Assembly (NCBI GenBank): GCA_033032865.1
Contig: JAWHQI010000228.1
Location: forward strand, 744,001 to 808,000
Length of the DNA stretch: 64,000 nt
Source of the DNA: Dactylorhiza incarnata
Lineage: Eukaryota > Streptophyta > Magnoliopsida > Asparagales > Orchidaceae
Direction: 5' to 3'
This document shows positions 14,156 through 61,893 of this stretch, one piece after another. The notes under the pieces were generated by a model. The model made no database searches, was not told the origin of the DNA, and saw nothing but the letters and a program-made list of their open reading frames with translations. Position numbers and translations under genes: made by a program. The number at the start of each line of letters is the position of its first letter. The first letter of the stretch is position 1.

Positions 14156-14242
14156 CTTGGACTTCCCGAGGTATAAACTGAATGGGTTCTCAACGGTACT
14201 AGGAGGTGTGATGGGATGTTAGCCCAAACGTCTCTTTCCAAG
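14156..14242 (-). ncRNA. Candidate structured RNA block (E3b copy A)
   Basis: GC-rich 87-nt island in an AT-rich interior, about 490 nt downstream of the primer site in sense direction, so probably in the genomic RNA leader. Sense strand: CTTGGA...TCCAAG closes the ends; GGG-N7-CCC forms a first hairpin; CCTAGTACCG is identical in the blocks at 23974 and 61806; the apical stem uses CCG/CGG, GAG/CTC and AAC/GTT. The ending CTCGGGAAGTCCAAG is shared by all copies. Function unknown; packaging, dimerisation or translation signals are possible. Confidence 0.55.
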
Positions 14243-14726
14243 ATTTAATTTTTCGATTATCTAATTTTTATGAATATTTTGGGTTTTCTATTTTTTTTAA
14301 GAAGCTAAATTTTCTTTTGCAAAAGACAATAAAAAGGAAATACACTATGTACGTACAAACAAAATATTTTTGAAATTTTGGGATTTTTCAAATTTTTGCG
14401 GAAGTCTTCTACGATTTAATAATTTAAAAGAAAGGGAAATACACCCCCATACTTAAAATTTAACATTGTCCCCAATGTTGAAAGCTAAGTATGAAGAAGA
14501 AAAATAAAATACAAGCACATGATTATGAAAGAAAAGGAACAAGGAGGGGGAAAGAAGCACGTCCCTGATTTGGAGACGGGCGACCACCACGATCACCTGC
14601 AAAATTATTTTTAAAACAATAAAACAAAACACAAAAAAAACATAAAGGTTACTTATTAATTTATTTATTTATTTTTAATTTTGATAAAAGTAATAGTGCT
14701 TTCTCTTTTCAAAATATCGACAAAAT

Positions 14727-14745
14727 ATCCCCGACAACATCGCCA
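14727..14745 (-). other. Primer-binding site of E3b
   Basis: TGGCGATGTTGTCGGGGAT on the minus strand, six bases from the LTR end. It is similar to the Asp-tRNA-type site of E6 (TGGCGCCGTTGCCGGGGA). Confidence 0.75.
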
Positions 14746-14751
14746 AAAACT

Positions 14752-16572
14752 TGATATTAAAAAATTATTGTTTTACGGATTTATGAGAATTTAAGAGATT
14801 TGTTGTGATGTTCTCCAATTCTATATTCGATGAAGGCAAGAGTACCTTATCTTTTATAGTATAGGATACTTAAGAAAAATATCAAGGTCGTATTAAAATA
14901 CGGGTCTGTCGAGTACTTCTAGTTCGAGAAAGCAAACTATTATATTATCGAAAATAATATTGAAAACGAGTAATAATTAAAACTAAATAAAAAGAGAACA
15001 AAGAAAAAAATAATGAAAACAAAATTTGATTAGAACTCGCTTTGAAATGAAATAAAAAGATAAATATTATCTTTCTTCTTTATGCCTTGACCGTGGAGAT
15101 TCATAGCTTATGAACGCACCTCTCTCGAGGAATATGCCCACCCGAGATTAAGTTGATCGGTCAGACTCACATCCTATAACCAAAATGCTTAATACTCCCT
15201 TTAATGAGGTGAATCCCACTATAGGAATTGACTCTTATCCAGAAGATTTACGTCATCCTCTCCCGAGGGGTGCGTGCAACTCTTTTTATTCTCGAGTGAT
15301 CGATTCGTATGCATGAGCATCTCGGTAATCTAGAATATGAAAACAAATACCGAAATTCATAACCGACATATGAACTCGATACCGATATTTTTTGAGAATA
15401 AATCGAAGGAGAGGAGAAACGATAATAAGGAAAAGATAATTTCGAATCAAAGCTTGTAAAAACAAAGAACTACTAAATATTTGCTAAAGGAAAAATATAG
15501 ATAAGAAGAGGATTAAGTGGGAAGGAGGAGATTTTGCATAAGTGAAAAAGAGCTTAAAATTTCATTTCATAAAAAGAGATTCCACAAATTGAAAACTAAG
15601 TTACATTGTATGGAAATAAAACTAGATTATCTTGCATGAAATAAAGAAGAACAAGAAATAAAACTAAGCTTAAGAAAAAGGAATTACATCAATTAAAAAT
15701 TAAACATAAACATGAAAATAAATAAAATCTATACAAGAACAACCCAAATGGGCAGGGGGCAGGAGGAGGAATTGCTGGAAAAGGGCTCCTAAATTTATAG
15801 GACAATTTTCCAAGTTACACGCCCTCGATCACGGGCGTGACCAAGGGCGTGTATTCACTGATCTACATGGCTGGGACAGTGGCGTGGTGCTTGCGTGTCG
15901 GCGGGAGAAAATCAGACATTACATGCCCGTAACATGTGGGTCACGGGCGTGTACCTGGGTGGTTGCATTGAGTGCAGCATGGGCTTGAGTTCGGTGCGGC
16001 AGCGAGCAGAGAACACGCGGGAATGTCACGGGCATGACCAATGGGTCACGTGCATGAACAATGGGTCACGTGCATGACTTGTACAGTAACATTTGATCCT
16101 GTGGCTGACATGTCCACGTGGAAAGATTGAAAATGAGCTTTAAAATTACACGCCCTTAATCACGGGTGTGACCGAGGGCGTGACCTTGCTCAACTTCTCG
16201 ATGGTAGCTCCTCTTCTCGACGACATCGCTGGGAGCATCTCTTTAAGTATACACGCCCTTGGTCACGGGAGGGACCATGGGTCACGGGCGTGACCGAGGG
16301 TGCGACTTGCTATGGACTAGCGCAAACTGCGCGGGATCAACTCTGGATTGAAATTAAGGTTACACGCCCTTGGTGACGGGCGTGACCTAGGGCGTGTACT
16401 GTCAATTTTGAGCAAAAATTCCAAAAAATCTGCAAAACAAAAATTCAACTATATTTAGAACAGAAATAATAAAAGAAATGATTTTTAACCAAAATTTAAA
16501 TAATATTAACAAAATTATATTAAAAATTAACCTAAATACTATAATAAAAATATGCAGAAATCCTACTTATCA
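14752..16572 (-). repeat. 5' LTR of E3b (copy A)
   Basis: 1,821 bp, highly similar to 11160-12918 including the CACGCCC / GGGCGTG array (about 15815-16405). It differs by scattered substitutions and a ~45-bp stretch (14858-14890) missing in the other LTR, so the element is not very young. Confidence 0.88.
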
Positions 16573-17288
16573 ACTTTCAAAGCTGTAGAAAGCTTCTTCT
16601 TCCTCCATCTATGAAAGAAGCTAACAAAAGATATAGAGTTCAATATGAAAGACTATATTAGTACATATAATCCTTGCATCTTCTTGTAAGCATTGATTCA
16701 TCCTCTGGTAAAGAATTCAAGACACTTAGTGCCTAGAATCCTTAGTGACTGTTGAAAGAGGATTCAAATTAGAAGATTACACTTCATCATCTTCTTCTTC
16801 TTCTTCTTACTCAAATTCTCATTTCTGTAAATTGAGTAAAGAGTTTTATGCATCCCTCTTCAAAGGAGTCAGTTTTGGTTCAAGATTTCCTTATTAAAAG
16901 ATCTGGTTTGGTTCGAAAAGTCTTCTTATCAAAAGACTCTGTCCCTGGTTCTAAGAGTCTCCTTATCAATAGACTCAGTGGTTCTAAGCGTCTTCTTATC
17001 AAAAGTCTCAGGCACTATGATAGTGAATTCCTACCAAGGTGGTAGAAAATTGGACTACCTAGATTTAGGGGAACCACTATAGCTTTTTGTGTCTTCTGTG
17101 CTTGTGAATTTTCTGTGATTATCTTTTGTCTACTTTTATTATTTTGTGATTTATTTATTCTGGTTGGAGTCCTAGATGCTTAGAAATTAAACTTAATTTT
17201 TTGTGCACTCATAGGAAAAGATTTTAAATCTCTATTCACCCCCCCCCCCCCTCTAGAGAATTCTCAGGGGAGTTACTGTGCACTTTCA
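16573..17288 (+). repeat. 5'-truncated LTR of Sirevirus-like E9, copy A
   Basis: Ends GTGCACTTTCA immediately before the primer site. It contains four repeats of TCTTCTTATCAAAAGACTC type (16880-17010) and a poly(C) tract (17239-17250) before TCTAGAG. Its 5' end is lost: it joins the end of the E3 LTR directly. Confidence 0.7.
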
Positions 17289-17290
17289 AT

Positions 17291-17302: not shown

Positions 17303-17384
17303 TAGGTAGATCATAAAAAGGTTAACACCTTGTTCAAAAGATTCTCTCACTCATTTTTTTATATTTGAAAAGTATTTAAACAAA

Positions 17385-18478: not shown

Positions 18479-20254
18479 AATGACTTGGCCTTAGTTGAAG
18501 CATTAGAAATGTAAAGTTGCTAGGTTTAGTCACTTAGGGATGCATATTCCTTTGTAGAAGTTGGGAACTGAAATTAGGTCGTGCAAGGTTTAATTATATT
18601 TGAAAGTTCTGGTAGTTTGGGGCTTTCGGAAGTGATTAACTTATGATTTGTTATAAATCACGCCCTATCTAGGTAGAAGATTTTAACTACAATAATAGCC
18701 CTTATACCTTGGGAGCTATGATGACGGATAACCAGTGATCTTAGACGATAACTTATTGGAATTAGAATATAGTGTTTGAGTTTACTATGATAAGAACGAT
18801 CTAAGTTTATCTTACTTTGGACCATCCGAAAGTGATCAAGACTAGCATATGTGGAAGTAATAGGAATTTGGTGAAATAAACGTGGTGATACTTCTTCGAT
18901 GAAATTGACTTGTGAGCTTCAAAGATTTTACCCATATGCCTTATGAATCAAACTCCATATAGAAAATGATTGGGAGTTATCTTACATATATTGATACTAA
19001 TAAAGATTGGTTAACATATACTCATAAGGTTCACAAGTGCACCACCATAAAATTTGAGGATGATTGGGACGCCTGATGATCTGATCAGTCCCACCAAGGG
19101 TAAGAACTGGATAAGTTGTAGAGTGGAGATGATTGATCACTCAGACATACTTGAAGGAATAAGAACCTAAACATGCGGAGAAAACATTAAAGATGCGTTG
19201 TCTACCCATATTAACAAGAGCTTTAGTCACCGGAAAAATGGTGTATTCCGGAACACGTATGTCCTCGGAATGAAGAAAGACGTCATAAGTTTTGTGATGC
19301 ACGGTGAAGGCCAAGTACAAAGTCTTTGGAGAACTGCCACAGTCACTGCCTGTGTTAGAGTGGAGTTCGAGGACATAATTATGGATTTCATACACAGGTT
19401 ACCACATCCCCACTCTGGGCACAAGTTTATTTGGAACATCGAGGATAGATTGACCAAGGTAGCTAGGGTCACCTCGGGACGAAAGGACGCTCCCGTTGGT
19501 GTTTGATGGGATTTGACGAGATGTTTGTCCATTATCATAGTGTGACCAGGACAATCGTGTCGAATCAGGATGGACGATGTACGTCCAAACAGTGAAGATC
19601 AGTCCAGGCTTATCTGGGCTCTTGCTTGACGTCAGCACAGCTTTCCACCCTCAGAGGGATGGAGGCGCAGGACTCCACTATCTTGGATCCGGTATGAGGA
19701 TCCCAAGGCACTCGGCTCGGAATTTATGGAGGACATAGATACCCAGGTGTGACTGATTTGAGTTAGGATGTTGTGGACCAGATCTTCCAGGTCAAGTATT
19801 ACGATGCGTGGTATCGTCAAGTAGAGTTCCAGGTTGGAGACCGGGTATTCCGGAAGTTACGTCCGATGAAGGGAGTCTTGCGAGTTCGCAGGCGGATGAA
19901 GCTCAGTCTGAGATTGATGGGGCTCTACAGGATCCTAGAGTGATCATTCCATTGGCTTATAGACTTTAGTTGCCACCGGAGTTAGTGGGATTGCACGACG
20001 TCTTCCATGTCTCCTCCTTTAGGAGAGCTCTACTACGACCAGAGAAGCAAATTTCTACTATAGATGGCCCGGTAGCCTCCGATCGATTGATTCACCTGAG
20101 AGCCACTAGAACTGATGTGGCAGAGATAGTCAGTGCTCTTCGAGTCAGAAATAACTTCAATTCTTAGGGGATGTTACGTTCAGTCACTCTCGATGAAAAC
20201 CCCGCGAGCCTAGCCAGAATTTCGAGGACAATTTTTTTTTTGTTTATTAGGATT
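18479..20254 (+). pseudogene. Decayed chromovirus pol (integrase) of E4
   Basis: From about 19190 several plus-strand frames keep integrase pieces: VEFEDIIMDFIHRLPHPHSGH (the core-domain DFV-GLP motif with the first catalytic Asp), then a DRLTK-like piece, a GDRVF-type stretch near 19835, and PPELVGLHDVFHVSSFR (19970-20020), the LPP-L-VHDVFHVS motif before the chromodomain position. Frameshifts and stops are frequent. 18479-19180 is too decayed to assign. It ends with the typical TTTCGAGGAC and a degraded polypurine tract before the LTR at 20255. Upstream gag, protease and RT are missing. Confidence 0.75.
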
Positions 20255-21770
20255 TGTAACATCCCCCAAACAACTAGACCCCTTGAGTGGTTTTGTCATG
20301 ACTAGGTCATGACAAAACCCTAGGAATCTTGAAGAGACCACTTGGCCTGCTAGGAAGAAGGAAACCACAGTGGTCTGCAAATAGCAATTTCCAGTTAACA
20401 AGCATAGGGTTGGACTTAAGGGCCTCACCTTGACCCTTTGACCCCACCATAGCATACCTAACACTTTAGGGGTCCCCTTAGAGCACCAAGGACCCATTGG
20501 GGTCAACCAAAGAGGCCAAATTGACCAAAGTCAACCCTAACCCCAAATTTGTCAAAGTAGCCTAATTAGGGTCAATTGACCTCCACCATGCCCAATTGAC
20601 CTTTGCCCTACCCATATAAGGTTATTAGGTACCCAATGGACCAAAAAGCCCCATCATGGGGCCACCAATTTGGTCAATTTGACTAAAGTCAACTCTAGCC
20701 CTGTTTTGGTCAAACCAACACCTTTTGGATAAATTGGCCCAATTGGGGCACCACCATGACTCGACCAACTTTGGGTGATGTCAAGGGACTCAAGCCACAC
20801 CACGTGGACCAGTCAACCCATCAGTTGACCAAGTCAACACCTCAAGTCAACACTTGGTCAACATTGCCCAAAAAGAGGGGAAAAGGCTAACTAAAGCTCA
20901 ATCCACTTGGGCTAGGCCCAATTGAAGTTGCACTCTAGTCTCAAGAGGCTGAAATTACATGGAATGCCATCCAATTTCTGGAGTGGGTGACTAGGAGTGA
21001 GAAATTGGGAGTTTCCCCCCCAATTTGAAGAGAGAGAAAAGGAGTATTAATGGCATTCATGGACAAGGGAGGCCAATTGATCTCCCAATTGATGGGGATT
21101 CATCTCCTCTGGCTGTTACAAGAAGTTTGGGGGTTTTTCCTGCTCAAATGGGGACTGAATCAAGAGGAATTCAGTTGGCCGAAATTCACCATTAATGGTG
21201 TTAATGGTGATTGATGATTTGTCTCTTCCCCTCCCCCAATTGGACCTTATAACACCTTTAGTGGATGAAGAGGAGGAGTTTCCCCACCATCCCCAAAGAA
21301 ATTGAGCACCAGAAGCTAGGATCGACATGACGCTGAAAGCTCCATCTCCGGCCATGGTGACTCGCCGGAATTCATGCCACCAAATCCCCACACAGGTCCG
21401 ATCCGCCTCCTCTCCCTTAGTGCTAGATCTTACGATAATTTAGGGCTTGATCCGAGCTCAATTGGGCTCGGATCGTGCTTTCGAAAGGGCTCGATTCGAG
21501 CTCTCTTTCCCCTCCTCTAAACCTCGATTCCGACCACCTCCGGCCGGCCAACCACCCCCTATCGCCGGCCACCCCCTCAACGGAGGTGGTGGTGGCATTG
21601 GCTGGCCGGGAAGAGGCACAGGTGGCCAGGAAATCGTCCCGCAAAGAAGTCCAGGATGGGCTGTCATGCGCCATCCATCCCTCGGGGATGATGACTATGA
21701 TCCGCCGGATCTGTCGTGATCAGCTATTCGTAGATTTAAATGATTATGTTATAACATTATTTCAATAATT

Positions 21771-22113
21771 TGTCGATCTGAGTAGAAGAAATTCGTCGAG
21801 CTGTAGGCTGGGTTCGTCGAACTAATTGTTGAGTTCATCGAACTGAATCTGGAGTTTGTCAAATGGAATTCATTCGTCGAACACACTCTGGAATTCGTCG
21901 AATTGATAGTTGAGTTCTTCGAACTAAATTCGGAGTTCGTCGAACGGAATTAATTCATCGAACTGAATTAATTCGTCGAACTGAATCTGGATTTCGTCGA
22001 ACTGAGAGATAATCTGTTGAACTGGCTGGAGAACTGATTTCGTCGAACTGAAGCACGACATTCGTCGAACGCAAAACATATTTCATCGAACGCAGATCAG
22101 ATTTCGTCGAACA
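21771..22113. repeat. TTCGTCGAACTGAAT-word array in the E4 LTR
   Basis: About 15 to 20 copies of TTCGTCGAAC or one-mismatch variants, spaced about 15 to 30 bp. The core TTCGTCGAA is an odd palindrome. The same word occurs in the unrelated copia LTRs at 42200, 48100, 59090 and 63960. Confidence 0.85.
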
Positions 22114-23973
22114 AAGAGACTTGTATTTTATTTTAATTATTAGAAATACTAGAACCCCTCAAATGAAAAAGTGCCCAACATAAATGTTGTAGCCCTTGGT
22201 GTCTAGCTTAAGTGAAAATTTATTTCAGGTCAATAGGGGCATTATTGCCCCCTGAGGATTCATTTTGCTAAGACTGGTCCCTAGGGTAGGGCAGTCACAA
22301 ATTCTTGAATATCTTTCTACTGGTAAATGGTATGGCCCTAAAATTTAAAACATAGGTTATTTACACCTACCCACACATCATACCCAAAGATGGGAATTTT
22401 AGAAGAACCTTTTTCTAAGGTTTTTGTAATAATTTCATAAATTAAATATTAATTAATTATTGGGTCAAATAACCTCCAATGCCCTCCAAATTTTGGTGAG
22501 TGCTTCTTGGGGTTATTGTATGACCTTGGTAAATATATCAGCCCAATTGGGAATGATTTGGTTGGGTAATTTGTCAACCCAAGTTAGGTCAAATTGGGTC
22601 AAAGTTAGGGCATGGTGTTGATCTTGGGGTATGGTGGTCAGAACTCATCACCATAAGTTGAAACCTTGGCCACTGGTTTAGGATCACCTAATACACCTTC
22701 ATGAGTAAGATGGGGTGGTGTAGATGTGGATATGCCCTAGGACCCTAGTTTTACTCCTTGGGGTGCATATAGAACCTTGTGAAGTCCATGTGATCAAAAG
22801 CCCTGGAATGGCCATGAAATTTAGGAGATATGTTCATGGGGTGTGAATATGCTTTAGGAAAATTTTGAGAGAATTTTAGGAGTACTTATTTCCCCTAAAT
22901 TAGGTCATAACCCCTTTCGAGAAATTTCTTATAAGAGATATTTACATGTTGAAATGGCCTTGGATGGTGATGAAACCTTGGTAGTGCCTTTATAATCATA
23001 TGATGGACCTATGGTAATTTTTGGGTAATTAATTAGGTTATTTATCCAGCACTTCATTCATAAGGCACTTATTTTACCTTAATCTCAAGAAATATAATTG
23101 AGGCTCCAAACCTCTCTGGAAAAATGTGCAACTTGGTGATAGGACATTTCAGAGCAATAATAATCTCTGTAAATTTTTATATAATTTTAGGAGGTTGTTA
23201 TCAGTAGGTTACTTCACAACATCCTCATATTATGATTTCTTTGGAATATTTATTTAAGTTGTTAATATTCCTTTATAAATTCTAAAATTTGGCTTGAGAA
23301 CTTTTCTGATCAATATAAATGTCTGGTAATATTCCCATAATTTTTGCACAACTATTGTTGGTGGTTGCTTCTTTAATTTCTAATTTTGGTTAAATAGTCA
23401 ATATTATAATTAGAGGACAATTCTTGATTATAAAATTGTGACACACTGTACTTACTGTTATTTTGGCATGATAGATTTATCCTAATTTTATGATTGTCAT
23501 GTCATAAGAATACCTTACACTTCATGTTCATACTTGGCAAATATTGGAGAAATTTAAATAAATGCTAAAATGTTGAGAAAAAATATGATTCTCTGGGTTT
23601 AGTCTTAAAATACCATGGTAGTCCTCCAGTAAAAATCTTGTGTCATGTGGGTGAATATTTGGAGTACCTCTACTTATAAGCTTCATATAGTTAGTTTGGT
23701 CTGCGTATAGTAAAAATGTAAAATTTGGATATTTAAGGGACTACCAAGTGGAAGTGGCATGTAGTTGGTGTACATGGTCAGGTTGAGAAGATTGAAAGTC
23801 ACCAGAAAAGAGTTTAGGTGATGAGAGTGTGCTTGGTGAGTTAAGGGTAAAGTTGTGCTCGGGATTGACGAAAGATCGTCTTTCCCTTAGCCTGTCATAA
23901 AATGCTTAGGGGTAATTCAAGAGAAATGACAGGAAGGGTATTCTTACGGGTAGCTACCAATAACATTAAGTAC

Positions 23974-24061
23974 CTTGGAAAGGGAGCTTTGGGTTGTCAT
24001 CCCAGTATAACTCCTAGTACCGTAGCGAGCCCCTAACAGGGTAATCCTCGGGAAGTCCAAG
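23974..24061 (+). ncRNA. Candidate structured RNA block (E4 LTR)
   Basis: 88 nt starting CTTGGAAAGGGAGC and ending CTCGGGAAGTCCAAG on the plus strand, which is the sense strand of E4. Ends pair (CTTGGA/TCCAAG); GGGTTGTCATCCC forms a hairpin; CCTAGTACCG is shared; the apical stem pairs CCG/CGG, CGAG/CTCG and CCC/GGG. It lies about 330 nt from the right edge of the LTR, so in a full element it would probably be transcribed near the 5' end of the genomic RNA. Confidence 0.55.
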
Positions 24062-24385
24062 ATTTACCATAAATTGTAGGGATAAGTTGATATAGAAGAT
24101 TAACTTAATAATGCACGCCCCCACACCCTGTAGTTATGGGAGGTTAGTTGGTTTGGTTGTAGGAGCAGTAGGCTCGGTGGTTGAAGCAGCGGACTAGTTA
24201 GTTCGGTGAGCTTGAGACTATGTAATTCTTGTTGGTACGGACGGGCTGGTCTGGCGATCCGTTGGCCCGGAATGTTATGATGACGGGCAGGTTAGCCCGA
24301 GGAGTTTATGGCTCGGGATATAGTAGAACATGTTTGCATGTGCATGAAGGTGGTGGGTCTTTGGAATTGGACAGTCGTTCACACC

Positions 24386-24440
24386 GACTTAGGGTAAGAC
24401 CTCTTCTGAGCTATTGAAGGGCAAGTTTCCAAATATTTCA
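24386..24440 (+). repeat. Start of composite B (element X LTR, left piece)
   Basis: GACTTAGGGTAAGACC through AAATATTTCA matches 9461-9517. It is interrupted by E5 and resumes at 32908. TTTCA at 24436-24440 is one side of the E5 target duplication. Confidence 0.85.
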
Positions 24441-25725
24441 TGTTGGATCTTACGGCGCCCTTAGAGGGGGGGGGGGGGGTGAATAAGGGAATAAAAAATC
24501 TTTTTATAATTTTATGGAAATTACTAAATTGTTTTATAATATGAGAAAGGCAAAATAACAATTTAGCTAATTTGTGAGAATATCATAATTTTCATCTTTA
24601 GAAATAAGTACTAAATTGTTTTATGAGTAAGAGATTGAAATAAACAAATTAGTTAAAGTAATTTGAATTGAAAAACTTTGTAACCAATATATTAAAGATA
24701 ACGCCAAAGGAGAGAAATCAAGTAAACACAAATAAAGACATGATTGTATTTATATAAAAAAGGTGTTTACAAAATTTGATTTCAATATCGCTAGAAATCG
24801 GAGGAGTACAAAAGTAAATTTCTTTTCCTTTTCTATACCGACATGTATCCCCACAAACCGGTTGGCTTTAGCCTATCCTTCCCCGGATATGGCCTCAAGC
24901 CGCTCTAGCCAATCCTTCCCCGGATATGGCCTCGAGCACCCCCTAGATCTAATCACCTAGACCTATTCACCAACACAAGACGAATTTCCCCCTAAGTCCT
25001 ACCCAGACCTAGTCGCCAACACAAGGAGAATTCTCTAAACGGTTACAAAATGTATGGAATGGAAATAATGAAAAACAATAATAAAACTCCCTATATGAGA
25101 TCTCTGGAGTCGAGGATGAAGGATCGTTGTAGCATAAGCGAGGTAGAAGTGATCGTCCTTCGGATGTAGCGTGACGTAGTCCTCCTCCAGAATTATCCTT
25201 AAGCTTTTTGTGGGAGATCCATCTTCGGCAGCATAACAGCACTGGAGTTGTGGCACAAGTAACCTCTCTGGAATCTCTTGCCAAAATGAGAAGCAAAGCT
25301 CCAATTTATAGAACTTGGAGCTAGAGCCTGCGGTAGTGGCTAGCGCCGGCGGTAGCGTTCGTGTGGAGCGGTTTGCAGAACCGTCGGTGGCGTGGCGCTG
25401 TGCACGAACTGGAGATAGCGCCTGGCGGTAGCGATAGCGCTGGAGGTAGCGGGAGATAGTGCTGGCGGTAGAGGTAGCGGTAGCGGTTGCGTAACCGTCG
25501 CTGTGCACGAACTCGAGATAGCGCCTGGCGGTAGCGATAGCGCTGGCGGTAGCGGTAGCGCTGGCGGTAGCGCTGCTCCTTTCAAAAGATTGCTCCAGGC
25601 TGCTTTTTACCTGTGGAGTATTGCACCTATAGTTCCTGCACACTATAAACATACTACAAGCAATATCAAATACAATATGGGATTTGTTATTCTCAAACAA
25701 AGGGATGTGACACACATGTCCAACA
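24441..25725 (-). repeat. 3' LTR of E5
   Basis: 1,285 bp. On the minus strand it starts TGTTGGACATGTG and ends GATCCAACA. U3 carries an array of AGCGCTGGCGGTAGCGATAGCG words (25325-25580) just upstream of TATAAATTGG (25310-25301). The R/U5 part has a poly(C) tract in sense direction next to TTATTCA and CGCC...CCTAAG. Large frames across the array are low-complexity artefacts. Confidence 0.93.
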
Positions 25726-25738
25726 ATCTCCCCCTTTT
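25726..25738 (-). other. Polypurine tract of E5
   Basis: AAAAGGGGGAGAT on the minus strand, directly before the 3' LTR. The same form precedes the 3' LTR of E8, and a GGGGGAG-cored variant precedes that of E7. Confidence 0.85.
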
Positions 25739-27860
25739 GATAATAACAAATCCTCTAAGCAAGAAATCAACAATAGTGTTTATAGATAAGATAAGCAAGA
25801 TAAAAGTGCAACTATAGTAAATGATATGCATGATAATGTGCATACTCCCCCTATCTTAATGCTCCCCCTACATAAATGCAATTTATGTGTTACTCCCCAT
25901 AAATGATAGATTTCATGAATTAGTCTCCCCTTATTTATTTATATTTCTCATATATAGATTTCTTCAATTAATCTCCCCCTTTTGGTATTAGCAAAAGAAG
26001 GTGGGGTGAGGGTAGTAAGGAGGCATTAATATATCATGATCGAGCTTTTCGAAATATAAAGAATGATAAAGAGTTTAAGCATAGCATATATAAGAGATTT
26101 CAAATATAAAGATAAGAGTTGTAAGCAAGCGGAAGATTATAGAAAACATCTTTGTGTAAGCATGAAGATCATAATTATAAATATGAGTTTAAGTTCAAAA
26201 TGTAAAGATGTTGTAACCTTTTTGAAATCTCAAAGTTTTTTATAAGGATACCAAGCATGAAATGAACATATCAAAGAGAGATTAAGCTACAATGTTACTT
26301 AATTCTAAGTTCAAGAAATACCAAAACATTGTAGAGATCATGCTAGGTTATCTAGTGCATTTCTTATATAAAGAGTAGTATAGATAAAGCATTAGAATTC
26401 AATACTCATGAGAAGAAGTGTTATGAAAGATAATGATGTGCACATAAGTGTATTTTGGGCAATGTTAACAGTTGATTTAAATCACCAAAATACAAGACAT
26501 ATGTAAAGTAAAATGCACAATAAAACATAAGTAAATTACTTTCACACACTTTTAATGCACATAATTTTTAACAAAGTGGTGTAATAACCAAGGTTTGCAC
26601 AAGTAACTTTACTATTCTTTCCAAGGTGCTCAACCTCACAATGCTTATGAAGACTTATCAGGATGTTCAAGTAGTGCTTGGTGAAGTTATATTTGTCTAC
26701 ATATATATAATTTTTTGTTCACATTTGTGAGACAACATTCTCCGAATACACTTATTTTGCAAACCAAAATTTTTAACTTAACCACTTTTCTACATTTCAT
26801 AAGTGCAATTCAAATGTAGTGTAGGCAATAAACTTATGCAAGTTTTAATTCATTGTACAAATACAATACACAAGCAAGCATTTTTAGATTTATACACACA
26901 TGTTGATTACCAAAATAAGTGAGTGAAATGTATCATTATCAATCATAAAACATTTACTCATACTTAGAGACATGCTAAGCTTGGTTCTACACATTTTGCA
27001 ATACAATTGATGCGCTTTAAATAGATATATCAAAGCATGATAAGAAAAACAATGTTCATAGTAATTTGAAAGAATATGATTTAACATTGTAAATAATTCT
27101 AAATAATAGAATTCATACATGCTTGATATTAGCAATAAAGATTATACAGTTTTTTTTGTTGTTTTATCATTTTTAATGAGAAAAAGAAAACAGAAAATCA
27201 CAAAAACATATTTTTGTATTTTTGAATTTTGAACTTTTGTAGTTGATTTTTCAAAATATGGATAAGAACACAAATAACAAAAACATATTTTTGTATTTTT
27301 AGATTTGAACATTTATAGTTGATTTTTCATAGAATGAATAAAACACAAATAACAAAAAACATATTTTTGTATTTTTGAATTTTGAATTTTTGTCTTTGAT
27401 TTTTCATAATGTGAATAAAATAAAAATACCAAATGTAAGAAATACAAAAACAAAGTAGTACATATAGACTAAAATATTTTTAATGATTTTTAGAAATTTT
27501 AAAACCCAGAAAAATCAGACACTCACGCTAGCGCCAGCGCTAGTGATAGCGCGGCAAACAGTACACGATTTTTTAGGAATTTTAAATTTTTTATTTTTGA
27601 TATTGATTAAGTGTCCTTAGAGTAGTTCCATGCTGTAATTTCAGAATTTTTTGAGATCTCTAGGTGGATCAAATTTGCATGAAACTTTGGCTTTTTCAAA
27701 TTCATGTGTTTTACAAAAACATTTAAGCTCAAAAAGACAGATTATGCAAACACAAGAGGACATTTTTTTATTAAATAACCCAAAATATGCATGATTAAAG
27801 TGATAAGTAAATAAAATGATCATGCAAAGAGTAATATAAGTATGTCCTAAGATTAAAGAC
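25739..27860. other. Non-coding AT-rich interior of E5 (3' half)
   Basis: No credible ORF. Similar by eye to the E8 interior (59560-62270), including GAAGAAGTGTTATG...GATGTGCACATAAGTGTATTTT and AGGTGCTCAACCTCACAA...GACTTATCAGG. A CGCTAGCGCCAGCGCTAG word cluster lies at 27527-27560. Confidence 0.7.
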
Positions 27861-28100
27861 TACCCCGACTAAATGTCTACACCCTAGCCCCGTACTAAGT
27901 GACGGATGGGCATGAGGAGCTGCACGCATGCCGTAGGTTGGGGTGTTAGTCCCATATGCACACACTAGAGAACACTCAACCTAGCACTCATTCCCCTAGT
28001 GCCTCGCAAGGCCCCACTCGAACCCTCCCCGGTTAAGGACAAGACATGACTTAGAGGTTAGGTCTCTAATGCATACAACCCTACTCCCCCGCTATTGTGA
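27861..28100 (-). ncRNA. GC-rich conserved block of E5, candidate RNA structure
   Basis: 240 nt of markedly higher GC than its surroundings, nearly identical to 60001-60240 in E8. In sense (minus) direction CTTAACC can pair with GGTTGAG (GGTTAAG in E8, so a pair is kept through a wobble change), and GGCATG pairs with CATGCC across a loop that differs between the two copies. GGGACTAACACCCC gives a small hairpin. Function unknown. Confidence 0.45.
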
Positions 28101-29996
28101 GATATGAAGTCAAAGGTGAAATAATCTTTTGGACAACCTATGCTTTTAAATCTAAGGGTTGATATAAAAACTATGGGTTATGTTTAATGTGATGAATCCG
28201 CATAGTTTTTCTACTTTTTATGAGATGACGAAATGAGACAACTAGCACAATTACTAATATTCAATAAGTGACAATGCTAGTATGATGAGTTTTGGGTTTA
28301 ATGTCAAGTCATAAAATTAATATTAATATTGCATGTATTCCAAAATAGAATTTCAAATTATAGATCTAGAATGGAGTGATGATTTAGTTTGATTTATACT
28401 TTCATTACAAAGTTGATTCTAGAGTCTACAAATATGAGAGATACATGCAATCACTAGCAAAGCAAATCAATACATCAAATAATGTAAAGAAAACATTATT
28501 CATAATTTTAATCATAAGATTCATAATTCCTATTATCGATTTGAGACAAGTCTTGATAGAACATGAATTATGATTTATGATTAAAGAGAATTTTTGCATA
28601 GAATATATGTTAGATCATCATGATGTATGAGAATTATAATCCTTCTAGACTTATGATATAGTGATATAGTGATTTTCTTTTGAAAGAACATGATTGATTT
28701 GTAAGTCTAGAAAAATGATGATCATGTAATCATATTAAAGACAAAGATCACATATAGAATGTTTTGAAATTTATAATAAAATTTGCATTCAATAATTGAA
28801 TCTATTAATCTTTGGTTTTGCATGATAATATATGATTTATGATATAATATTCATATATATATTCTAATGATTAATCCATAAACTATGTGTTTGTTGGAAT
28901 TTTAGTATTCTATATAATTTCAAATCACATAGTTATCATCAAATTTAAATAACATTGTAAATGTTATACCTAGCATATAAGTTTAAGCATAAACCAAGAA
29001 GTGATGCTAGGATGATGAGTTTGAATGCAATGTTATTACATAGGATTAATGGAGATTATGTTGCATGTAATATGAAAAGTTCTCAAATTAATTTTCTTTA
29101 GACCTAGAATGAAATGATTAAACTTTTGATTTGATCTTAATGATATAAGATGATTCCAAGGTCTAAATTACATGCAAACAATGGTGACACACATCACACA
29201 TAATATTTAAATTAATATATGAAACAATTATACATAGGATATCATGTGATGAAAAAATCCATAAACACCGAAATTTCTGAATTAAGCGAACTAAGATAGC
29301 ATTTAAAAGCGGAGTTAAAATTGGGCAAATTGACATCACCAAACAAACTTAAATGGGCAAGTTTAGTTTGCCAATAGATGGAGATTTCTGTGCTCTTTCC
29401 TAAAAGATATTAAACGCGAAAATCGGACGAGCGGATCAAAAGATATGGATATTTCAAGCTTTGATCAAAAACTCGCTTTTTGAAAGATTAAGCATGCGTT
29501 TAGATGAATTTTTGTTTTTGATTTTTCTAGATAATGTTCTTCATTATAAGGGCTATCATATGCACTAAACAAATATAGAATAAAAAAATGTTGCACATTT
29601 AATTTTTAATTTTAAGCCCTTTAATAAACCATTTAAATCCAATTTTTAAAATAGTTTCAATAGTCTTGATAATAATTTCAAAATTCAATTTCTAATGATA
29701 ATTCAAGACAATTAAGGGTAAAGGATTTAAAAGGATAAAGAACAATCAAAGATGAGAGATAGATCACTTAAAAAAAATATATGACTTAATGTTCAATTTT
29801 AATTCAAATTTGATTTGATAGACATTAGGCTTAATATATGAAAGTCATATTACATGATATATAAAGTGATCATAGCATGTTTGTTTTTAAAAAAAATATA
29901 AAATAAACAAAAGAAAAAGAGACAATAAGCATATCATGAAGTAGAGTATTGATATTTCATTTTTAATTTTTTCTACTCCATGCAAATGATTGGATA
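28101..29996. other. Non-coding AT-rich interior of E5 (5' half)
   Basis: About 1.9 kb of strongly AT-rich sequence with no recognisable coding remnants; pol would be expected here in an autonomous relative. Confidence 0.65.
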
Positions 29997-31553
29997 CTAA
30001 TTAATAAGAGATTTAGGTATCCAAAGGGGACCATGTGGGATGGTTCCTTTGGGCACCCAAATATGACATGATGACTTTTTAGAAGACAAGGGTAAATGGG
30101 CCTTTTCTATTAAAGTTGATGTATCATTTTTCTTTAAGGGTCTCCATTCATACCTTGGTGGTTTATATTTTAAATTCATATTATGATTATATGACATCTT
30201 TATATGATTAGATTTGTTTGAAAAATAATTCATTTGCAATTTATGTTTATTCAAATTATTTTTCAAAATAGATTGATGTTGATAATCATAATGATTTTCA
30301 TTATATGGATTCTTTGAAATTTTATAAGAGTGATTGTCTTTCTTTAGAAGTGATTGTTGAAAGAGTGGGTTACAATATGTTTTAAAAGATTGATTATAAT
30401 TTTGATGATTTCCATTTCCACTCTTTCGTATAGATATACTCTTAGGATAATAATTTGAATTTTGATTTTTATAAAAAGGAGTTTTTAAATTTGAGTCATG
30501 ATTGAAAATATATTAAGACTTATAATAGTGACTCTTAAGAATTTTATGAGGATCATAATTCTTTTTGAAACTAAACTCCTTTCGATTTAATGTGTGAAAA
30601 TGATCCTTTTTAGAAATAATTTTGTAAGTTAATTTATCCTTGTTATTCAAAATCTTATGATGAAATTCATTAGGTGACATTTGAAATTTTTCAACAAAAG
30701 ATTTTAATTGTTTTAACTTACAAGATAAAACATCATTATCAATTAACAATTTTTCATTATGCCTTTTAGAAATTATGAGCCCTTTTTCAATTTCCTTGAA
30801 TTTTTCTTTTAATAAATTGCAATTAAGACAAGGAATAGGAATTTTAACTAAAGAGTGTGAAAGAGAATTTAACAAATCAATATTTGATTCTACATTATCG
30901 TTTGCTTTTAAAGATTTATTTTCTAAACGTAATTTGGAATTAGCAATTTTTAACTTTAAAATTTTACGTTTAGCAATTTTAAGCATACAAGAAGTAGAAA
31001 TAGAATTTGTTACAAAAAGAGAAGATTTAGATTTTCTTACCTTGCTATAGTTTCCGTCTTCTCTTTTGCTTGATGTGTTGCCAACAAATGAGTCCAACAT
31101 TGTGACGTTGTATTTTTCTTCCTCCAAGCATGAATCCTCATCGATTTCTTCTCTTGGATCCATAAGGAATTTCTCATCGATTTCTTCTCTTGGATTCATA
31201 AGGAATTCCTCTTGTTCATCATCTGTAGAAGGAAGACTATAAGTATTCTCAAGAAATTTCCAAACTTCATAAGCAGTAGGAAGTGTATAAATTAGTTTGA
31301 AAATATTTTAATGCAATGCACAATATAGACTATTCATTGATTTGGTATTTAAAAACGTTTCATTTTTATTTAAAATACTTGGGGGTATTTTAATAGTAAT
31401 ATTCCATACTTCCATATCCAAAGACTTAAGAAATTTTTCCATAAGAAATTTCCACCCATTATAATTTTTCCCTTCAAATAAAAGTGGTGCTAAAAATTTT
31501 TCATTTATAAGAAAGTTTTCACCATAAATAGAAGCGAGATCATGAGACGCCAT
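29997..31553 (-). pseudogene. Sirevirus-like gag of E5 (stops only, frame kept)
   Basis: The ATG at 31553 begins MASHDLASIYGENFLINEKF, about 30 nt from the primer site. One frame continues for about 519 codons to 29997, interrupted mainly by a TAA at 31310-31308 and a stop at 30513. Parts in order: LFEGKNYNGWKFLMEKFLKS (gag N-terminal Trp motif), YTLPTAYEVWKFLENTY, a short acidic duplication (NPREEIDE / DPREEIDE), a long coiled-coil Lys/Glu-rich part, a CLNCNLLKEKF segment, and KSSCHIWVPKG near the end, a motif typical of the gag-protease border in these elements. The middle of the UBN2 domain is deleted. No normal CCHC knuckle is visible. Confidence 0.85.
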
Positions 31554-31583
31554 TATTCCTGGTTTTTAAACCGTTTGGAATAA

Positions 31584-31599
31584 CCTCGCTTTGATACCA
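31584..31599 (-). other. Primer-binding site of E5 (initiator Met-tRNA type)
   Basis: TGGTATCAAAGCGAGG on the minus strand, two bases from the LTR end. It fixes the element's orientation. Confidence 0.9.
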
Positions 31600-31601
31600 C
31601 T

Positions 31602-32907
31602 TGTTGGATCTTACGGCGCCCTTAGATGGGGGGGGGGGGTGAATAAGGGAATAAAAATTCTTTTTATAATTTTATGGAAATTACTAAATTGTTTTATAAT
31701 ATGAGAAAGGCAAAATAACAATTTAGCTAATTTGTGAGAATATCATAATTTTCATCTTTAGAAATAAGTACTAAATTGTTTTATGATTAAGAGATTGAAA
31801 TAAACAAATTAGTTAAAGTAATTTGAATTGAAAAACTTTGTAAACAATATATTAAAGATAACGCCAAAGGAGAGAAATCAAGTAAACACAAATAAAGACA
31901 TGATTGTATTTATATAAAAAGGTGTTTACAAAATTTGATTTCAATATCGCTAGAAATCGGAGGCGTACAAAAGTAAATTTCTTTTCCTTTTTTATACCGA
32001 CTTGTATCCCCACAAATCGGTTGGCTTTAGCCTATCCTTCCCCGGATATGGCCTCAAAAAGCCGCTCTAGCCAATCCTTCCCCGGATATGGCCTCGAGCA
32101 CCCCCTAGATCTAATCACCTAGACCTAGTCGCCAACACAAGGCGAATTTCCCCCTAAGTCCTACCCAGACCTAGTCGCCAACACAAGGCGAATTCTCTAA
32201 ACGGTTACAAAAAGTATGGAATGGAAATAATGAAAAATAATAATAAAACTCCCTATATGAGATCTCTGGAGTTGAGGATGAAGGATCGTTGTAGCATAAG
32301 CGAGGTAAAAGCGAAGCGATCGTCCTTCGGATGTAGCGTGACGTAGTCCTCCTCCAGAATTCTCCTTAAGCTTTTTGTGGGAGATCCATCTTCGGCAGCA
32401 TAACAACACTGGAGTTGTGGCACAAGCAACCTCTCTGGAATCTCTTGCCAAAACAAGAAGCAAAGCTCCAATTTATAGAACTTGGAGCTAGCGGCCGCGG
32501 TAGTGGCTAGCGTCGGCGGTAGCGTTCGTGTGGAGCGGTTGCGGAACCGTCGGCAGCGTGGTGCTGTGCACAAACTGGAGATAGCGCCTGGTGGTAGCGA
32601 TAGCGCTGGCGGTAGCGAGAGATAGCGCTGGCGGTAGCGGTAGCGGTTGCGTAACCGTCGCTGTGCACGAACTCGAGATAGCGCCTGGCGGTAGCGATAG
32701 CGCTGGCGGTAGCAGGAGATAGCACTGACGGTAGCGGTAGCGCTGGCGGTAGCGCTGCTCCTTTCAAAAGATTGCTCCAGGCTGCTTTTTACCTGTGGAG
32801 TTTTGCACCTATAGTTCCTGCACACTATAAACATACTACAAGCAATATCAAATACAATATGGGATTTGTTATTCTCAAACAAAGGGATGTGACACACATG
32901 TCCAACA
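31602..32907 (-). repeat. 5' LTR of E5
   Basis: 1,306 bp, same ends and parts as 24441-25725: word array 32485-32760 and TATA box 32477-32468. Differences from the other LTR include small indels in the word array and a few percent substitutions. Confidence 0.93.
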
Positions 32908-33008
32908 TTTCACCCCCTCTCTCATTCCTTCACTCGTAACTCAAAGTAACCGGCTACTCAACAGTTACCCCCTCATCCTTCAGCTTGAGCAAGTGTGGAT
33001 TTGGGACA
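32908..33008 (+). repeat. Element X LTR end (composite B, right piece)
   Basis: Resumes exactly where 24440 stopped apart from the TTTCA duplication, and matches 9513-9611. Ends GGGACA before a TTTTTGGTGCC primer-site-like sequence (33009). Confidence 0.8.
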
Positions 33009-52710: not shown

Positions 52711-52797
52711 CTTGGACTTCCCGAGGTATACACTGAATGGGTTCTCAACGGTACTAGGAGGTGTGATGGGATGTTAGCCCAAACGTCCCTTTCCAAG
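52711..52797 (-). ncRNA. Candidate structured RNA block (E3b copy B)
   Basis: Same 87-nt block as 14156-14242, with only isolated base changes (for example TATAAACTG to TATACACTG in plus orientation). CTTGGA/TCCAAG closing bases are intact. As it is a duplicate of copy A it adds little independent evidence. Confidence 0.5.
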
Positions 52798-58100: not shown

Positions 58101-59544
58101 TGTTGGATCGGTAGGCGCCCTTAGAGGGGGGTGGGGTGAATAAGGGCTTTTAAAAACTTTAGTATATTCTGAATAACTTTGAAAAAGCTTTGATTATTAA
58201 ACTAGAGATGATCAAGACAAATCAAGTGGAGTAAAAGTAAGGACATGATTTTATTAACTTGAGAAGCATGATTACAAAACTTGATCTCTTATTGAAGCTA
58301 GAAATCAAAGCTAATAGAAAGACTCTTTTTGTTTTCTATACCTACTCGTATCCCCACGAACCGGTTGGCTTTAGCCGATCCTTCCCCGGATACGACCTCA
58401 AGCCTCTCTAGCCAACCCTTCCATGGATATGGCCTCAAGCACCCCCTATACCTACTCCCGAGACCTAGTTGCCAACACGAGGCAAATTTCAGCCCTAAGT
58501 CCTACCCAGACCTAGTCGCCAACACGAGGCAAATTTCACTAAACGATTACATAAAAGATATGAAATGAAAAGATAATAATATAAAAACTACCTCTATGTG
58601 GATCTCTTGGAGAAGTAGATGAAGACACAGAGTATGATCGTAGTCGATGCGGTCTTTCATCACGATGATGAAGCGTGTTGAAATCTTCTCCACGGATCTC
58701 CTTTAGTCTTTATGGATTTGTGGGAGTATCTCTCTGAAACTTCCTCTCTATGTTGTGGCACGAAGCTCTGGAATTCTGGATCTCTAGAGGCTTTCTAAAG
58801 TCAGAGCCAAGATGTCCTTTTTTAGACTTAGCGCTAGCGCCTGCGCTATCGCTACCACTGGCGCTATCCCAAATTAGGACATATTTTGCGCGGCCGAATC
58901 TTCAATCCGAGGAAACAATTCCTCCTTGCCAACTGTGTGCGTCGCTACCGCCTGCGCAATCGGCTACCGCCAGGCGCTATCTCCTTCCATATGTGCTCCC
59001 GAAATTGCGCTATCATCTCTAGCGCCAGGCGCTAAGTGCTGCCGCCGGCGCTAGTGGGTGTACTGTCTTCTATTTTCATTCGTCGGAATTCGTCCGGAGT
59101 TCTCGAGAACATTCGACGAATTGACTTAGCCGCACAATTTCCTTCACAAGTCTGCCTTTTTGACTTCTGTCTGCGTTCGTCGATATTCGTCGGGAGTTCA
59201 CGAGAACATTCGACGAATGGACTTAGCCGCAAAAATTTCTTCTTCAAACTAGAGATTTGGCTTCTCTCTGGATTCGTCGGAATTCGTCGGGAGTTCACTA
59301 GAACATTCGACGAATGGACTTAGCCGCTAACAGTTCGTCGAACGACAGCTAGCGCCTGCGCTAGTGCTACCGCCAGTGCTAGTGGAAGATTTGGATTTGA
59401 TGGCTCAACTTTGCGGGCAAACTTCTTATGTAATCCTTTAGTCATGTGGACTTTGTTATCCTGCACACATAAACACACAAGATCAAATACACATAGGTTT
59501 TGTTATTCTCAAACCTAGGAGATGCGGAAGACCATGTTCCAACA
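58101..59544 (-). repeat. 3' LTR of E8
   Basis: 1,444 bp. On the minus strand it starts TGTTGGAACATGGTCTTCCG and ends CCGATCCAACA. U3 words: AGCGCCAGGCGCTA types (58830-59050, 59340-59385) and ATTCGTCGGAATTCGTCGG types (59085-59340), both upstream of an AT-rich TATA-like stretch near 58815. The 5' 60 bp match E3, and R/U5 matches E5 and E3. Confidence 0.9.
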
Positions 59545-59557
59545 AACTCCCCCTTTT
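59545..59557 (-). other. Polypurine tract of E8
   Basis: AAAAGGGGGAGTT on the minus strand, next to the 3' LTR, nearly the same as in E5. Confidence 0.85.
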
Positions 59558-60000
59558 GATAATAACAAAACCATTAACGATAAAGCAGAGCATTAATAAA
59601 TAAGCATGATGAAACTATATTTGTGTGTGTGTGAGAGTGATGACTTAGGATAGTTATTGATTTTAGCATTTAGAATTGCTCCCCCTAAATACATGCTCCC
59701 CCTAAGTGAATGTTCTCCTAATATGTAAGTTATCATCTTAATTAAGTATTATAGTTTGATAGCAGATTAATATTTATCATGTTAGTTCTCCCCCTTTTGT
59801 TATTAGCAAAAGAGGGTAAGGAGACATCACTAAAAAGTTACAAAGAAGATAAAAGCATGATCGAGCTTGTAGAGAGGGAAATGATAAGGAGTTTTAGAAT
59901 ACTTTTCATTTGAATAGATCAGAGTTTGAGTATTACAACATTTTCATAAATCAGAGTTTGTAACATAAACAAAATGTAATGATTTCCAATTAACTAAACT

Positions 60001-60240
60001 ACCCAGACAATATGTCTACACCCTAGCCCCGTGCTAAGTGACGGATGGGCATGAGGAGCTGCAAACATGCCGTAGGTTGGGGTGTTAGTCCCATATGCAA
60101 ACACTAGACACAACTTAACCTAGCACTCTTTCCCCCTAGTCCCTCGCAAGGCCCCACTGGAACCCTCCCCGGTTAAGGACAAGACATGACTAGAGATAAA
60201 GGTTATCTAATGTCTACAACCCTACGCCCCCGCTATGGTG
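60001..60240 (-). ncRNA. GC-rich conserved block of E8, candidate RNA structure
   Basis: Nearly the same 240 nt as 27861-28100 in E5. Sense strand: CTTAACC pairs with GGTTAAG about 55 nt away, GGCATG with CATGCC, and the direct repeat TGTAGACAT occurs at both ends. In an AT-rich interior this preservation points to selection on RNA or DNA structure. Confidence 0.45.
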
Positions 60241-61805
60241 ATAAATGAAGTCATGGATAATAATTATTGGAAACATTTAAGTATTTTAATTCTAATGACA
60301 TAGCCTATGGATTTATATTTTTATTTGAATTTATGAAAAACACTCACATAGCTATTTTGAAGTCCATTACTAAATCAGAGTTTTTAGCATAATAATATTT
60401 TCATAGAAATAAATCAGAGTTTTATAGCAAAGAAAAAATTCATGTTAAAAGCAACCAATATAGAGTTTACCAAGCAAGTCTACCACTTGTTGCAAGAAAG
60501 GAATTTGAAGATTCAAGTGATGATGCACCAAAAATGAAAGACTTTAAATAAGCATGAAGGCGCAAGGTAAAACAATTATATGGTGATGATGCGGAAGACT
60601 TATAGAAATACAAGAAACATCTTATTGTAATCAATGATGATCCATAGAAAGATATATGAGTTAAATTTCAAAAAGAAGATGTTTTTGTAAATCATTTTTC
60701 AATTAAAATCTTTTAAGTTTGATAATAAAGTAACCAAGCCTGAAATAATGTTATCAAAAAGAGATTACTACAATGTTACTTTAATTCACAATTTCAAAAC
60801 ATACCAAACATTGTAGAAAGCTTGCTAGGTTATCTAGTGCATTTCATAAGTGAAGAGTAGTATAGAATTAGCATTAGGATCCAATACTCATGAGAAGAAG
60901 TGTTATGGAAGATAATGATGTGCACATAAGTGTATTTTTGAGTAGAGTAAACAAATGTTTTAATCAAAAATACAAGTAATATGTAAAGTAAGAGCATAAT
61001 AAAACACAAATAATTTTACGTCCACACACTTCAATGCACAAAAAAAATGTACAACTACCAAGGTGCTTTGCACACACAATGCTCATTAAGACTTATCAGG
61101 GTGCAAAGTAGTGCTTGGGGGATCACATAGTTTTATTCTTCAAGATTGATTTTTATTGTGATCCGGTGTACTTAAGAATAAGTGGTTTTTATTTTGAAAG
61201 AGAGTTATGGTTTGTACAAGATACTTTATTATTCTTTCCAAGGTGCTCAACCTCACAACGCTTATTAAGACTTATCAGGAGGTTCAAGTAGTGCTTGGTG
61301 GAGTTATCTTTGTCACTTTATTTTATGATTTTATTTTGTACAAAGTTCTCCGAATACACTTGTTTTGCAAACCAATATAATTTATAAGAAAGATAACCAC
61401 TTTTCTTAATTTTTAAAAGTGCAAATAAAGGAGTGTAGGTAAGATACTTGTGCAATTTTAATTCATTGTACTAATACAAAACATACACAAGCATTCTTAG
61501 ATTAAACACAAATGTAGACAATGCCAAAATAAGTGAGTGAATAAAGATCATTATCAAACATAAAGCATTTACTCATACTTAGAGGCATGCTAGGCTTAGT
61601 TCTACACCACTTTCAATATAATTGATGCACATATTAATAGATATATCAAAGCATGATTCAAAGTAGTTTGAAATGATAATTTGTAAAATTATAGAAGTTC
61701 TAAATGATGTGTTAAATCATGCTTGATTTTCAATGAAGTACATACAATATTTTTGATATTTGTGAAGAATAATTTTTATTTAAAGTTTGAACTTAAAAAT
61801 TTGAT
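60241..61805. other. Non-coding AT-rich interior of E8
   Basis: No ORF with recognisable similarity. It contains two copies of CCAAGGTGCT...CACAA(T/C)GCT(C/T)ATTAAGACTTATCAGG (61056-61100 and 61238-61280), the second matching E5 at 26620. Confidence 0.7.
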
Positions 61806-61893
61806 CTTGGACTTCCCGAGGACTACCTTGTGAGAGGTTCGCCCGGTACTAGGTGATATGATGGGATGATAGCCCAAATCACCCTTTCGCAAG
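61806..61893 (-). ncRNA. Candidate structured RNA block (E8)
   Basis: 88 nt; sense strand starts CTTGCGAAAGGGTG and ends CTCGGGAAGTCCAAG. GGGCTATCATCCC hairpin, identical CCTAGTACCG, and an apical stem using CCG/CGG, CGA/TCG and ACCT/AGGT. The apical pairs differ in sequence from E4 (CCC/GGG) and E3b (AAC/GTT) but stay paired. Confidence 0.55.

Follow-up and report, generated by a model that had tools for sequence, protein, structure and literature searches.

Introduction

Export elements such as the constitutive transport element (CTE) occupy a position in the 3' part of the RNA on which they act. In murine elements, the genomic RNA is exported by means of the RNA transport element (RTE) and the MusD transport element (MTE) (PMC12786077, in part). 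Plant long terminal repeat (LTR) elements, for example Evade/Copia93, protect their RNA by a triple helix formed in the 3' untranslated region (UTR) by an expression and nuclear retention element (ENE) (PMC12501189, in part), and the LTRs of Cassandra, a terminal-repeat retrotransposon in miniature (TRIM), contain regions homologous to 5S ribosomal RNA (rRNA) that are transcribed by Pol III (PMC12786077, in part). Here we examine a block of 87 to 88 nt present four times in a 64,000-nt stretch of the Dactylorhiza incarnata genome (assembly GCA_033032865.1, contig JAWHQI010000228.1, positions 744,001 to 808,000 of the forward strand; hereafter the window). From sequence comparison, the block would be a shared 3'-UTR RNA of ~ 90 nt which, via a host factor, stabilises or exports the genomic RNA of three LTR-retrotransposon lineages, a reading that we judge about evenly balanced between right and wrong.

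As with the ENE and the double-domain ENE (dENE), described for many families and occurring in transposable-element RNAs of plants and fungi, the block would be a structured RNA in the 3' UTR of plant LTR-retrotransposon RNAs (PMC12501189, in part). The ENE, however, depends on internal loops rich in U by which the poly(A) tail is captured, whereas the block is predicted to form a three-way junction with a loop-E signature. Membership of the ENE class was rejected since two U-rich tracts (about five U, flanked by G-C) were not found within the block, where the longest run of U is 3 in 39, 2 in 11 and 4 in one of the 51 aligned copies. Like the CTE, the block would act in cis as a structured RNA of the unspliced genomic RNA through host factors. 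RTE and MTE are described in the same terms (PMC12786077, in part). These elements belong to retroviruses and murine LTR elements while the block belongs to plant elements, and the two are likened by description, not by sequence or fold. We know of no NXF1 or RBM15 binding for the block.

Cassandra also offers a small structured RNA with 5S words inside plant LTRs (PMC12786077, in part). The block differs from it in being missed by the Rfam 5S model and in resembling 5S over only part of the sequence; membership of Cassandra was rejected, with no recognisable 5S and no Rfam gathering-score match anywhere in the window. The plant 5S rRNA mimic (P5SM), a cis-acting 5S-like RNA bound by L5, sits in a host exon, in the TFIIIA pre-mRNA, and controls splicing. 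The block would share its character of a cis-acting 5S-like RNA but belongs to retroelements instead of a host exon, and it is set against P5SM by description only. The Pr77 signature, for its part, has a 5' position and a promoter role. With this Pr77/79-nt signature the block has in common that it is a short conserved RNA domain found across retroposon families, there those of trypanosomatids (PMC4035085, PMC2323293, both in part). The block differs from the signature in the latter's link to a hepatitis delta virus (HDV)-like ribozyme and in the hosts.

At the gathering level, no Rfam family matched anywhere in the whole window, and a search with three copies up to E = 10 returned only matches far below the families' own cut-offs. 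Furthermore, literature searches limited to open-access full text showed no report of the block, and searching public virus and prokaryote collections with the block gave no match. The block may be an undescribed RNA part that retroelements share in order to use the host cell.

A block shared by three element lineages

The four window copies lie at 23974..24061 (plus strand, 88 nt) in the Ty3/gypsy, chromovirus-type LTR of an element termed E4, at 14156..14242 (minus, 87 nt) in E3b, an Athila/Tat-like non-autonomous element, at 52711..52797 (minus, 87 nt) in the segmental duplicate of the E3b insertion, and at 61806..61893 (minus, 88 nt) in E8, a copia-type element. The same positions, strands and lengths had been given in an earlier sequence-only reading of this DNA and were confirmed by re-reading. 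Four matches to the core CCTAGTACCG-N20-40-CTCGGGAAGTCCAAG are present in the window, and none in 100 shuffles. A covariance model, the follow-up which that reading had suggested, was built from the four blocks and recovers strongly just these four in the window, the next match scoring 11.4 bits; with a model built from 51 copies, the next-best match in the window after the four blocks scored 11.3 bits. Between the three types, the blocks are 74-84% identical and their 100-nt flanks stay within the range of shuffled sequences, in agreement with the unlike flanks noted earlier. A segmental duplication (10121-18477 versus 48396-55379) includes the blocks at 14156 and 52711, which are hence one duplicated insertion, so that the window holds three independent types and not four.

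Across the genome (3.27 Gb, 3184 contigs), the pattern CCTAGTACCG-N20-40-CGGGAAGTCC has 12,720 exact matches, 6199 forward and 6521 reverse, while the reversed control pattern has none in either orientation. A DNA search with the E4 block gave 1622 candidates, and the 40 that were scored were all at 95-100% identity. The whole-genome DNA search with the E8 block gave no match, but this search skips very common words and the result is not evidence of rarity. Fifty of the 12,720 pattern matches were read: L031-L060 are the first 30 in genome order, and L061-L080 are 20 copies chosen for sequence variety among the other 70 of 100 listed places. Together with the four window copies they form a flank set of 54, all from this one genome. 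The alignment used below (A3) contains 51 of them, after exclusion of L037 (divergent) and of L041 and L057 (near-duplicates).

Single-linkage clustering of the 54 copies on either flank resulted in cluster A with 31 copies, cluster B with 15, cluster C with 7 (two of which are the same window insertion) and one single copy, L062; grouping by the upstream flank alone gave nine groups and by the downstream flank alone six. The 30 genome-order copies divide into 19 A, 9 B and 2 C. The names chromovirus, Athila and Tat are ones that we presume from hallmarks (LTR start, type of primer-binding site (PBS), integrase tail) and not from a classifier. When 19 A, 13 B and 5 C copies were compared between clusters, flank identity was 0.53-0.59, at or below the shuffled 0.59-0.62, and identity at the block positions outside the core was 0.70-0.76. 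The stretch common to the lineages is the block plus a few bases, the flanks being unrelated; sharing among unrelated retroelement types, as claimed from the window, is thus upheld by three flank clusters between which the similarity is confined to the block. L037 and L043 are mosaics. In L043 the upstream flank is of the B (copia) type, and downstream, close to the block, the flank is another one, similar to L037. The flanks thus switch at the block, which may be a recombination point.

Predicted fold and covariation

The alignment of 51 copies supports a folded RNA with a three-way junction, for which the model comprises P1, P2, P2b, P3 and an apical P3b. The outer helix P1 pairs (G/A)TCTTGGA with TCCAAGA(T/C) over up to 8 pairs, with a one-base bulge in many copies. 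In P2, columns 10-16 are paired with 39-45, and the helix is capped by the P2b hairpin TGGG-N7-CCCA, in which UUCG or UUCA precedes G in five of the 51 rows (L054, L060, L063, L067 and L076, that of L060 being UUCG). P3 consists of CCG/CGG, and AGUA/GAA at its base corresponds to the bulged-G (loop E, sarcin-ricin) signature.

Over the whole structure 93.1% of 1119 cells are paired, compared to 38-56% when the partners are slid. Double-changed cells amount to 55, against 19.4 in shuffles, a number that 0 of 500 shuffles reach, and slid versions give 7-18. Within P2, pair 15-40 is AU in 17 copies, CG in 17 and GC in 11, and pair 13-42 is AU in 36, UA in 6 and GC in 3. Changes were also mapped on a tree that FastTree inferred after the P2 columns had been removed. 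Four P2 pairs together displayed 9 double-change events, of which pair 15-40 accounts for six, versus 0-1 for slid partners and a mean of 3.6 for permuted letters (200 runs). P2 covaries beyond phylogeny, within the limits given with the counter-evidence below, and P1 shows a few compensated pair changes.

The claim of a structured RNA made in the sequence-only reading is supported by the P2 covariation, both against shuffles and on the tree, but gains nothing from the P3 and loop-E letters, which are uninformative in copies fetched by the core. Its outer-end pairing of CTTGG(A) with (T)CCAAG stands as helix P1, except that E8 begins with CTTGCGA and has a bulged C, and the changes that it had placed in an apical stem are partly register-shifted in E3b, P2 being the better covarying helix.

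Two blocks in tandem, ~ 70 nt apart within one LTR, are present in L040, L041 and L050 (second block of L050 at 1657-1742, minus), and L061 resembles a fusion in which the first block supplies the start and the second the end. Such tandem blocks are reminiscent of the CTE, which has a two-fold layout.

Position of the block in the three lineages

In cluster B, the fetched element L081 shows the order LTR, PBS (TGGTATCAGAGC at 1132), gag from ~ 1179 with a gag-type frame to 2472 (Retrotran_gag_3, E 0.0022, below the Pfam cut-off), and block core at 3855. The block is found ~ 1.3 kb past the gag frame, and the stretch from PBS to gag measures only ~ 35 nt. The E8 element (minus strand) has its copia-type 3' LTR at 58101..59572, ~ 2.2 kb downstream of the block, with an end at 58101 that matches the L081 LTR end beside the PBS. 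Its internal region at 59787..62250 (minus) is homologous to the post-gag part of L081 (62250-60122) and to that of a related copia element at 24441..32918 (minus; LTRs 24441-25735 and 31602-32918, PBS 31599-31588, gag from 31565). This related element has a gag match at E 0.0083, below the Pfam cut-off, and a long 3' part with no pol seen; cluster B elements likewise are copia with gag and no pol seen. No block was found at the matching position of the element at 24441-32918, and block presence varies within the copia family. An extended outer stem enclosing the copia block (AAGTTTGAACTTAA in E8) was tested in 13 copies and is not taken as a defining feature: five of them (L033, L036, L042, L080 and E8) have an exact inverted repeat with the TTTGAACT word, and the other eight have other repeats or none.

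In cluster C, which is Athila/Tat-like, the element L082 begins with an integrase (rve, E 1e-18; frame 1-465), continues with a match to 14645-14440 of the window at 1076-1277 and has the block core at 1452; after the block it matches the 3' region of E3b, and homology to the LTR sets in at 2649, at a distance of ~ 1.15 kb from the block. In E3b itself (minus strand, element sense) the 5' LTR is at 14751..16573, the PBS at 14735..14745 and the 3' LTR at 11159..12919. The PBS has 2 mismatches, is exact in the relative L035, and in both we take it to be of a tRNA-Asp type. Since the E3b stretch 14440..14645 (minus) is 72% homologous to the post-integrase region of L082, the E3b block is placed in 3' non-coding sequence. 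In both E3b and L035 the block is located ~ 500 nt after the PBS and appears leader-borne because gag-pol is missing between PBS and block; the two are read as elements that lost gag-pol.

In cluster A, of the Ty3/gypsy (chromovirus) type, the block lies inside the LTR. The E4 LTR at 20255..24388 (plus) starts with TGTAACATCC, after integrase reading-frame remains at 19171..20164 (plus; recognised by eye, with no Pfam integrase match), and its homology to six compared genome copies stops at ~ 24376-24388. In L040, reverse transcriptase (RT) and RNase H come before the LTR sequence (Pfam RVT_1, E 5.6e-26), and the terminus in L041 reads TTACA, AA and then TGGTATCAGA, the start of the PBS. Read together with L083, the L041 LTR would extend for ~ 6.07 kb from TGTAACATCC to TTACA (lengths computed by hand), with the same start as E4 at 20255, and would carry the block at ~ 4500-4585, with a second, more divergent block ~ 70 nt upstream. 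In all 16 cluster-A copies examined, which are those of the 19 genome-order A copies other than L031, L052 and L057, the block is followed by a TATA motif at a distance of 581-883 nt. Judging from these TATA positions, the cluster A block is most likely in U3 and so in the 3' part of the RNA.

Hence, for B and C the 3'-UTR position is read from a single fetched element per cluster, and for A it is deduced. With this proviso for A, a 3'-UTR location fits all three lineages. The genomic-leader location proposed from the window is not supported, as the block is LTR-internal in A, past gag in B and between integrase and 3' LTR in C, while the element-sense orientation proposed with it holds wherever coding sequence could be recognised, as with gag in L081, integrase in L082 and RT in L040.

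Several further observations were made on cluster A. In L040, TATA motifs lie within short inverted repeats (by eye), in the cluster-A region from ~ +580 to +800 after the block, and these repeats could form a hairpin of the promoter or of the poly(A) region. The E4 LTR contains an array of ~ 21-nt repeats with TTCGTCGAAC words at 21789-22119 of the window. L056 and L057, which are 7.6 kb apart, are 99.97% identical over 3 kb.

Proposed function and rival explanations

We propose that the block would be a cis-acting RNA domain carried on the genomic RNA of three LTR-retrotransposon lineages, downstream of the coding sequence. Given that the Gags of these lineages are unrelated, its partner would be a host factor, or the fold itself would block a nuclease. 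The main job of the domain would most likely be to protect or export unspliced genomic RNA, by a mechanism that we infer, and template switching or recombination has probably carried the block from one lineage to another. A structured RNA part common to retrotransposon superfamilies would be unusual, and a module in copia, gypsy/chromovirus-type and Athila/Tat RNAs would point to a common host pathway exploited by all of them. Retrotransposons would then have a 3'-UTR strategy other than the ENE triple helix. Thousands of non-coding stretches could be annotated by means of the block, and it would be easier to understand why non-autonomous elements that have lost pol keep this region. The block is small enough for direct reporter testing.

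A number of results weigh against this proposal. Concerning position, that in B and C is read from one fetched element each plus the window copies, and the start site in cluster A is deduced from TATA motifs, which are also present upstream of the block in 13 of the 16 copies, scattered apart from four related copies near -745. Moreover, L056-L058, a subfamily of cluster A, have a gag-like, CCHC zinc-knuckle-like frame (Pfam below cut-off) ~ 1 kb downstream of the block. Concerning the fold, RNAalifold run unaided on the 51 rows did not recover P2, and folding energy is ordinary in the window copies, with minimum free energy (MFE) z values of -1.08, 0.67, 0.61 and -0.72, so that the structure rests on covariation. 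Five covariation measures were computed, and two of these do not beat shuffles, namely the number of pairs with a double change (216 of 500 shuffles) and that of further pair types (153 of 500). Double changes affect 4-7 pairs in the slid versions versus 5 in the observed structure, and the maximum among the 200 runs with permuted letters on the tree is also 9 double changes. The P3 and loop-E letters are invariant and provide no pairing evidence, as an exact match to the core was the criterion by which the 51 rows were collected. Finally, pairwise alignment within clusters shows the block at 0.80-0.83 identity versus 0.74-0.77 for the flanks in A, at 0.86-0.89 versus 0.84 in B and at 0.91-0.92 versus 0.76-0.77 in C, an excess that we grade as modest in each of the three.

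Other explanations have to be weighed against a 3'-UTR stability or export RNA. A plant 5S mimic in the TFIIIA pre-mRNA and the potato spindle tuber viroid (PSTVd) are reported to recruit 5S-binding proteins. The block could, although we consider it unlikely, be a mimic or derivative of 5S rRNA. It would resemble the loop-E/helix IV side and, in part, the helix III/loop C side, and would attract 5S-binding proteins (L5, TFIIIA), with export or stability as the effect. Both RNAs contain the words ATCCCATCA, TAGTAC and GGGAAGTCC, and at one gap setting 10 of 4000 shuffles score as high against a plant 5S sequence as the 51-copy profile does, while at three gap settings 1, 1 and 2 of 150 shuffles do so. 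Yet 19-113 of 2000 shuffles score as high as a single copy, and the 5S reverse complement scores 17.3, 19.4 and 17.3 against 19.4, 26.9 and 17.8 for 5S, which is close at two of the three settings. The letters AGTA...GAA, equivalent to the loop E letters UAGUA/GAAG beside a helix, are found in all 51 rows, but these had been selected for having them, and the linear alignment with 5S does not superpose the two loop E strands. Furthermore, the Rfam 5S model gave no match up to E = 10 at three copies, no full 5S of the Cassandra kind is present, and the comparison was chosen after the likeness had been noticed. A 5S-like origin of the block is only suggestive. We find slightly more doubtful the extended version in which an undescribed class of 3'-UTR RNA, a loop-E three-way junction imitating part of 5S, would have been passed among chromoviruses, Athila/Tat and copia and would capture one host ribonucleoprotein (RNP), by way of a 5S-binding protein, for export or stability in more than 10,000 copies; if the 5S-imitating reading were true, retrotransposons would have made convergent use of a viroid-like trick. 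To the same degree doubtful is a translation element of the 3' cap-independent translation element (CITE) type, in which a Y-shaped RNA of the 3' UTR would bring an initiation factor or a ribosomal subunit to a poorly capped genomic RNA. The three-way junction within 3' non-coding RNA would suit it, as would the uncapped plant retroelement RNA described for BARE (PMC12786077, in part), but no Rfam family matches the block.

The remaining explanations are less probable still. That the block is a packaging or dimerisation signal in the 5' leader, as the sequence-only reading had it, is favoured by the distance of ~ 500 nt from PBS to block in E3b and L035, which however have no gag-pol between the two and whose same region follows integrase in L082. 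With only ~ 35 nt between PBS and gag of L081, and with three unrelated Gags that would need to recognise one signal, such a role through Gag is very unlikely for a block that we read as lying outside the leader, and a 5' leader element was rejected on the block positions in A, B and C elements. Slightly less probable again is a self-cleaving ribozyme of an undescribed type. A compact three-way junction with strongly conserved letters would be compatible with one, and retrozymes provide ribozymes in retroelements (PMC4918200, in part), but the earlier failure to match known ribozyme cores holds, with hammerhead CTGANGA absent from 51 of 51 rows and no Rfam ribozyme match, and cleavage in the 3' UTR or U3 would take off the poly(A) end. 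We give equally little weight to an element acting at the DNA level, such as an enhancer or binding site, with no RNA role: although the cluster A block lies upstream of a shared TATA motif, the block is away from the LTR in B and C, and the compensatory changes of P2 pairs together with the UUCG loop are RNA signatures. Least probable of all is a small independent mobile element, either a miniature inverted-repeat transposable element (MITE) or a short interspersed nuclear element (SINE), inserted in three elements. The sharp borders of the block and its inverted-repeat ends, the P1 strands, are what such an insertion would leave, but direct repeats of at least 6 nt at the block ends occur in 12 of 54 copies (22%) against 19% of shuffles, and all 30 genome-order copies lie within the three flank clusters.

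Other features of the window

Two stretches, at 9507-10126 and 32904-33567, are 89.9% identical and seem to comprise the end of a Tat-like LTR, a leader and the start of gag. Near 24388, sequence of this kind adjoins the E4 LTR (by eye). At 33899-41143, LTRs at 33899-35412 and 39634-41143 that are 98.9% identical enclose a 778-aa gag-protease frame and no long pol frame, with a PBS at 35418 that we label, presumptively, as being of tRNA-Asp type; this is apparently a recent non-autonomous insertion of Athila/Tat type. A long poly-C run is located at 33177-33225 inside a gag-like frame, and shorter poly-C runs are present at 11106-11125 and 17239-17251, all of which possibly stem from assembly or replication slippage.

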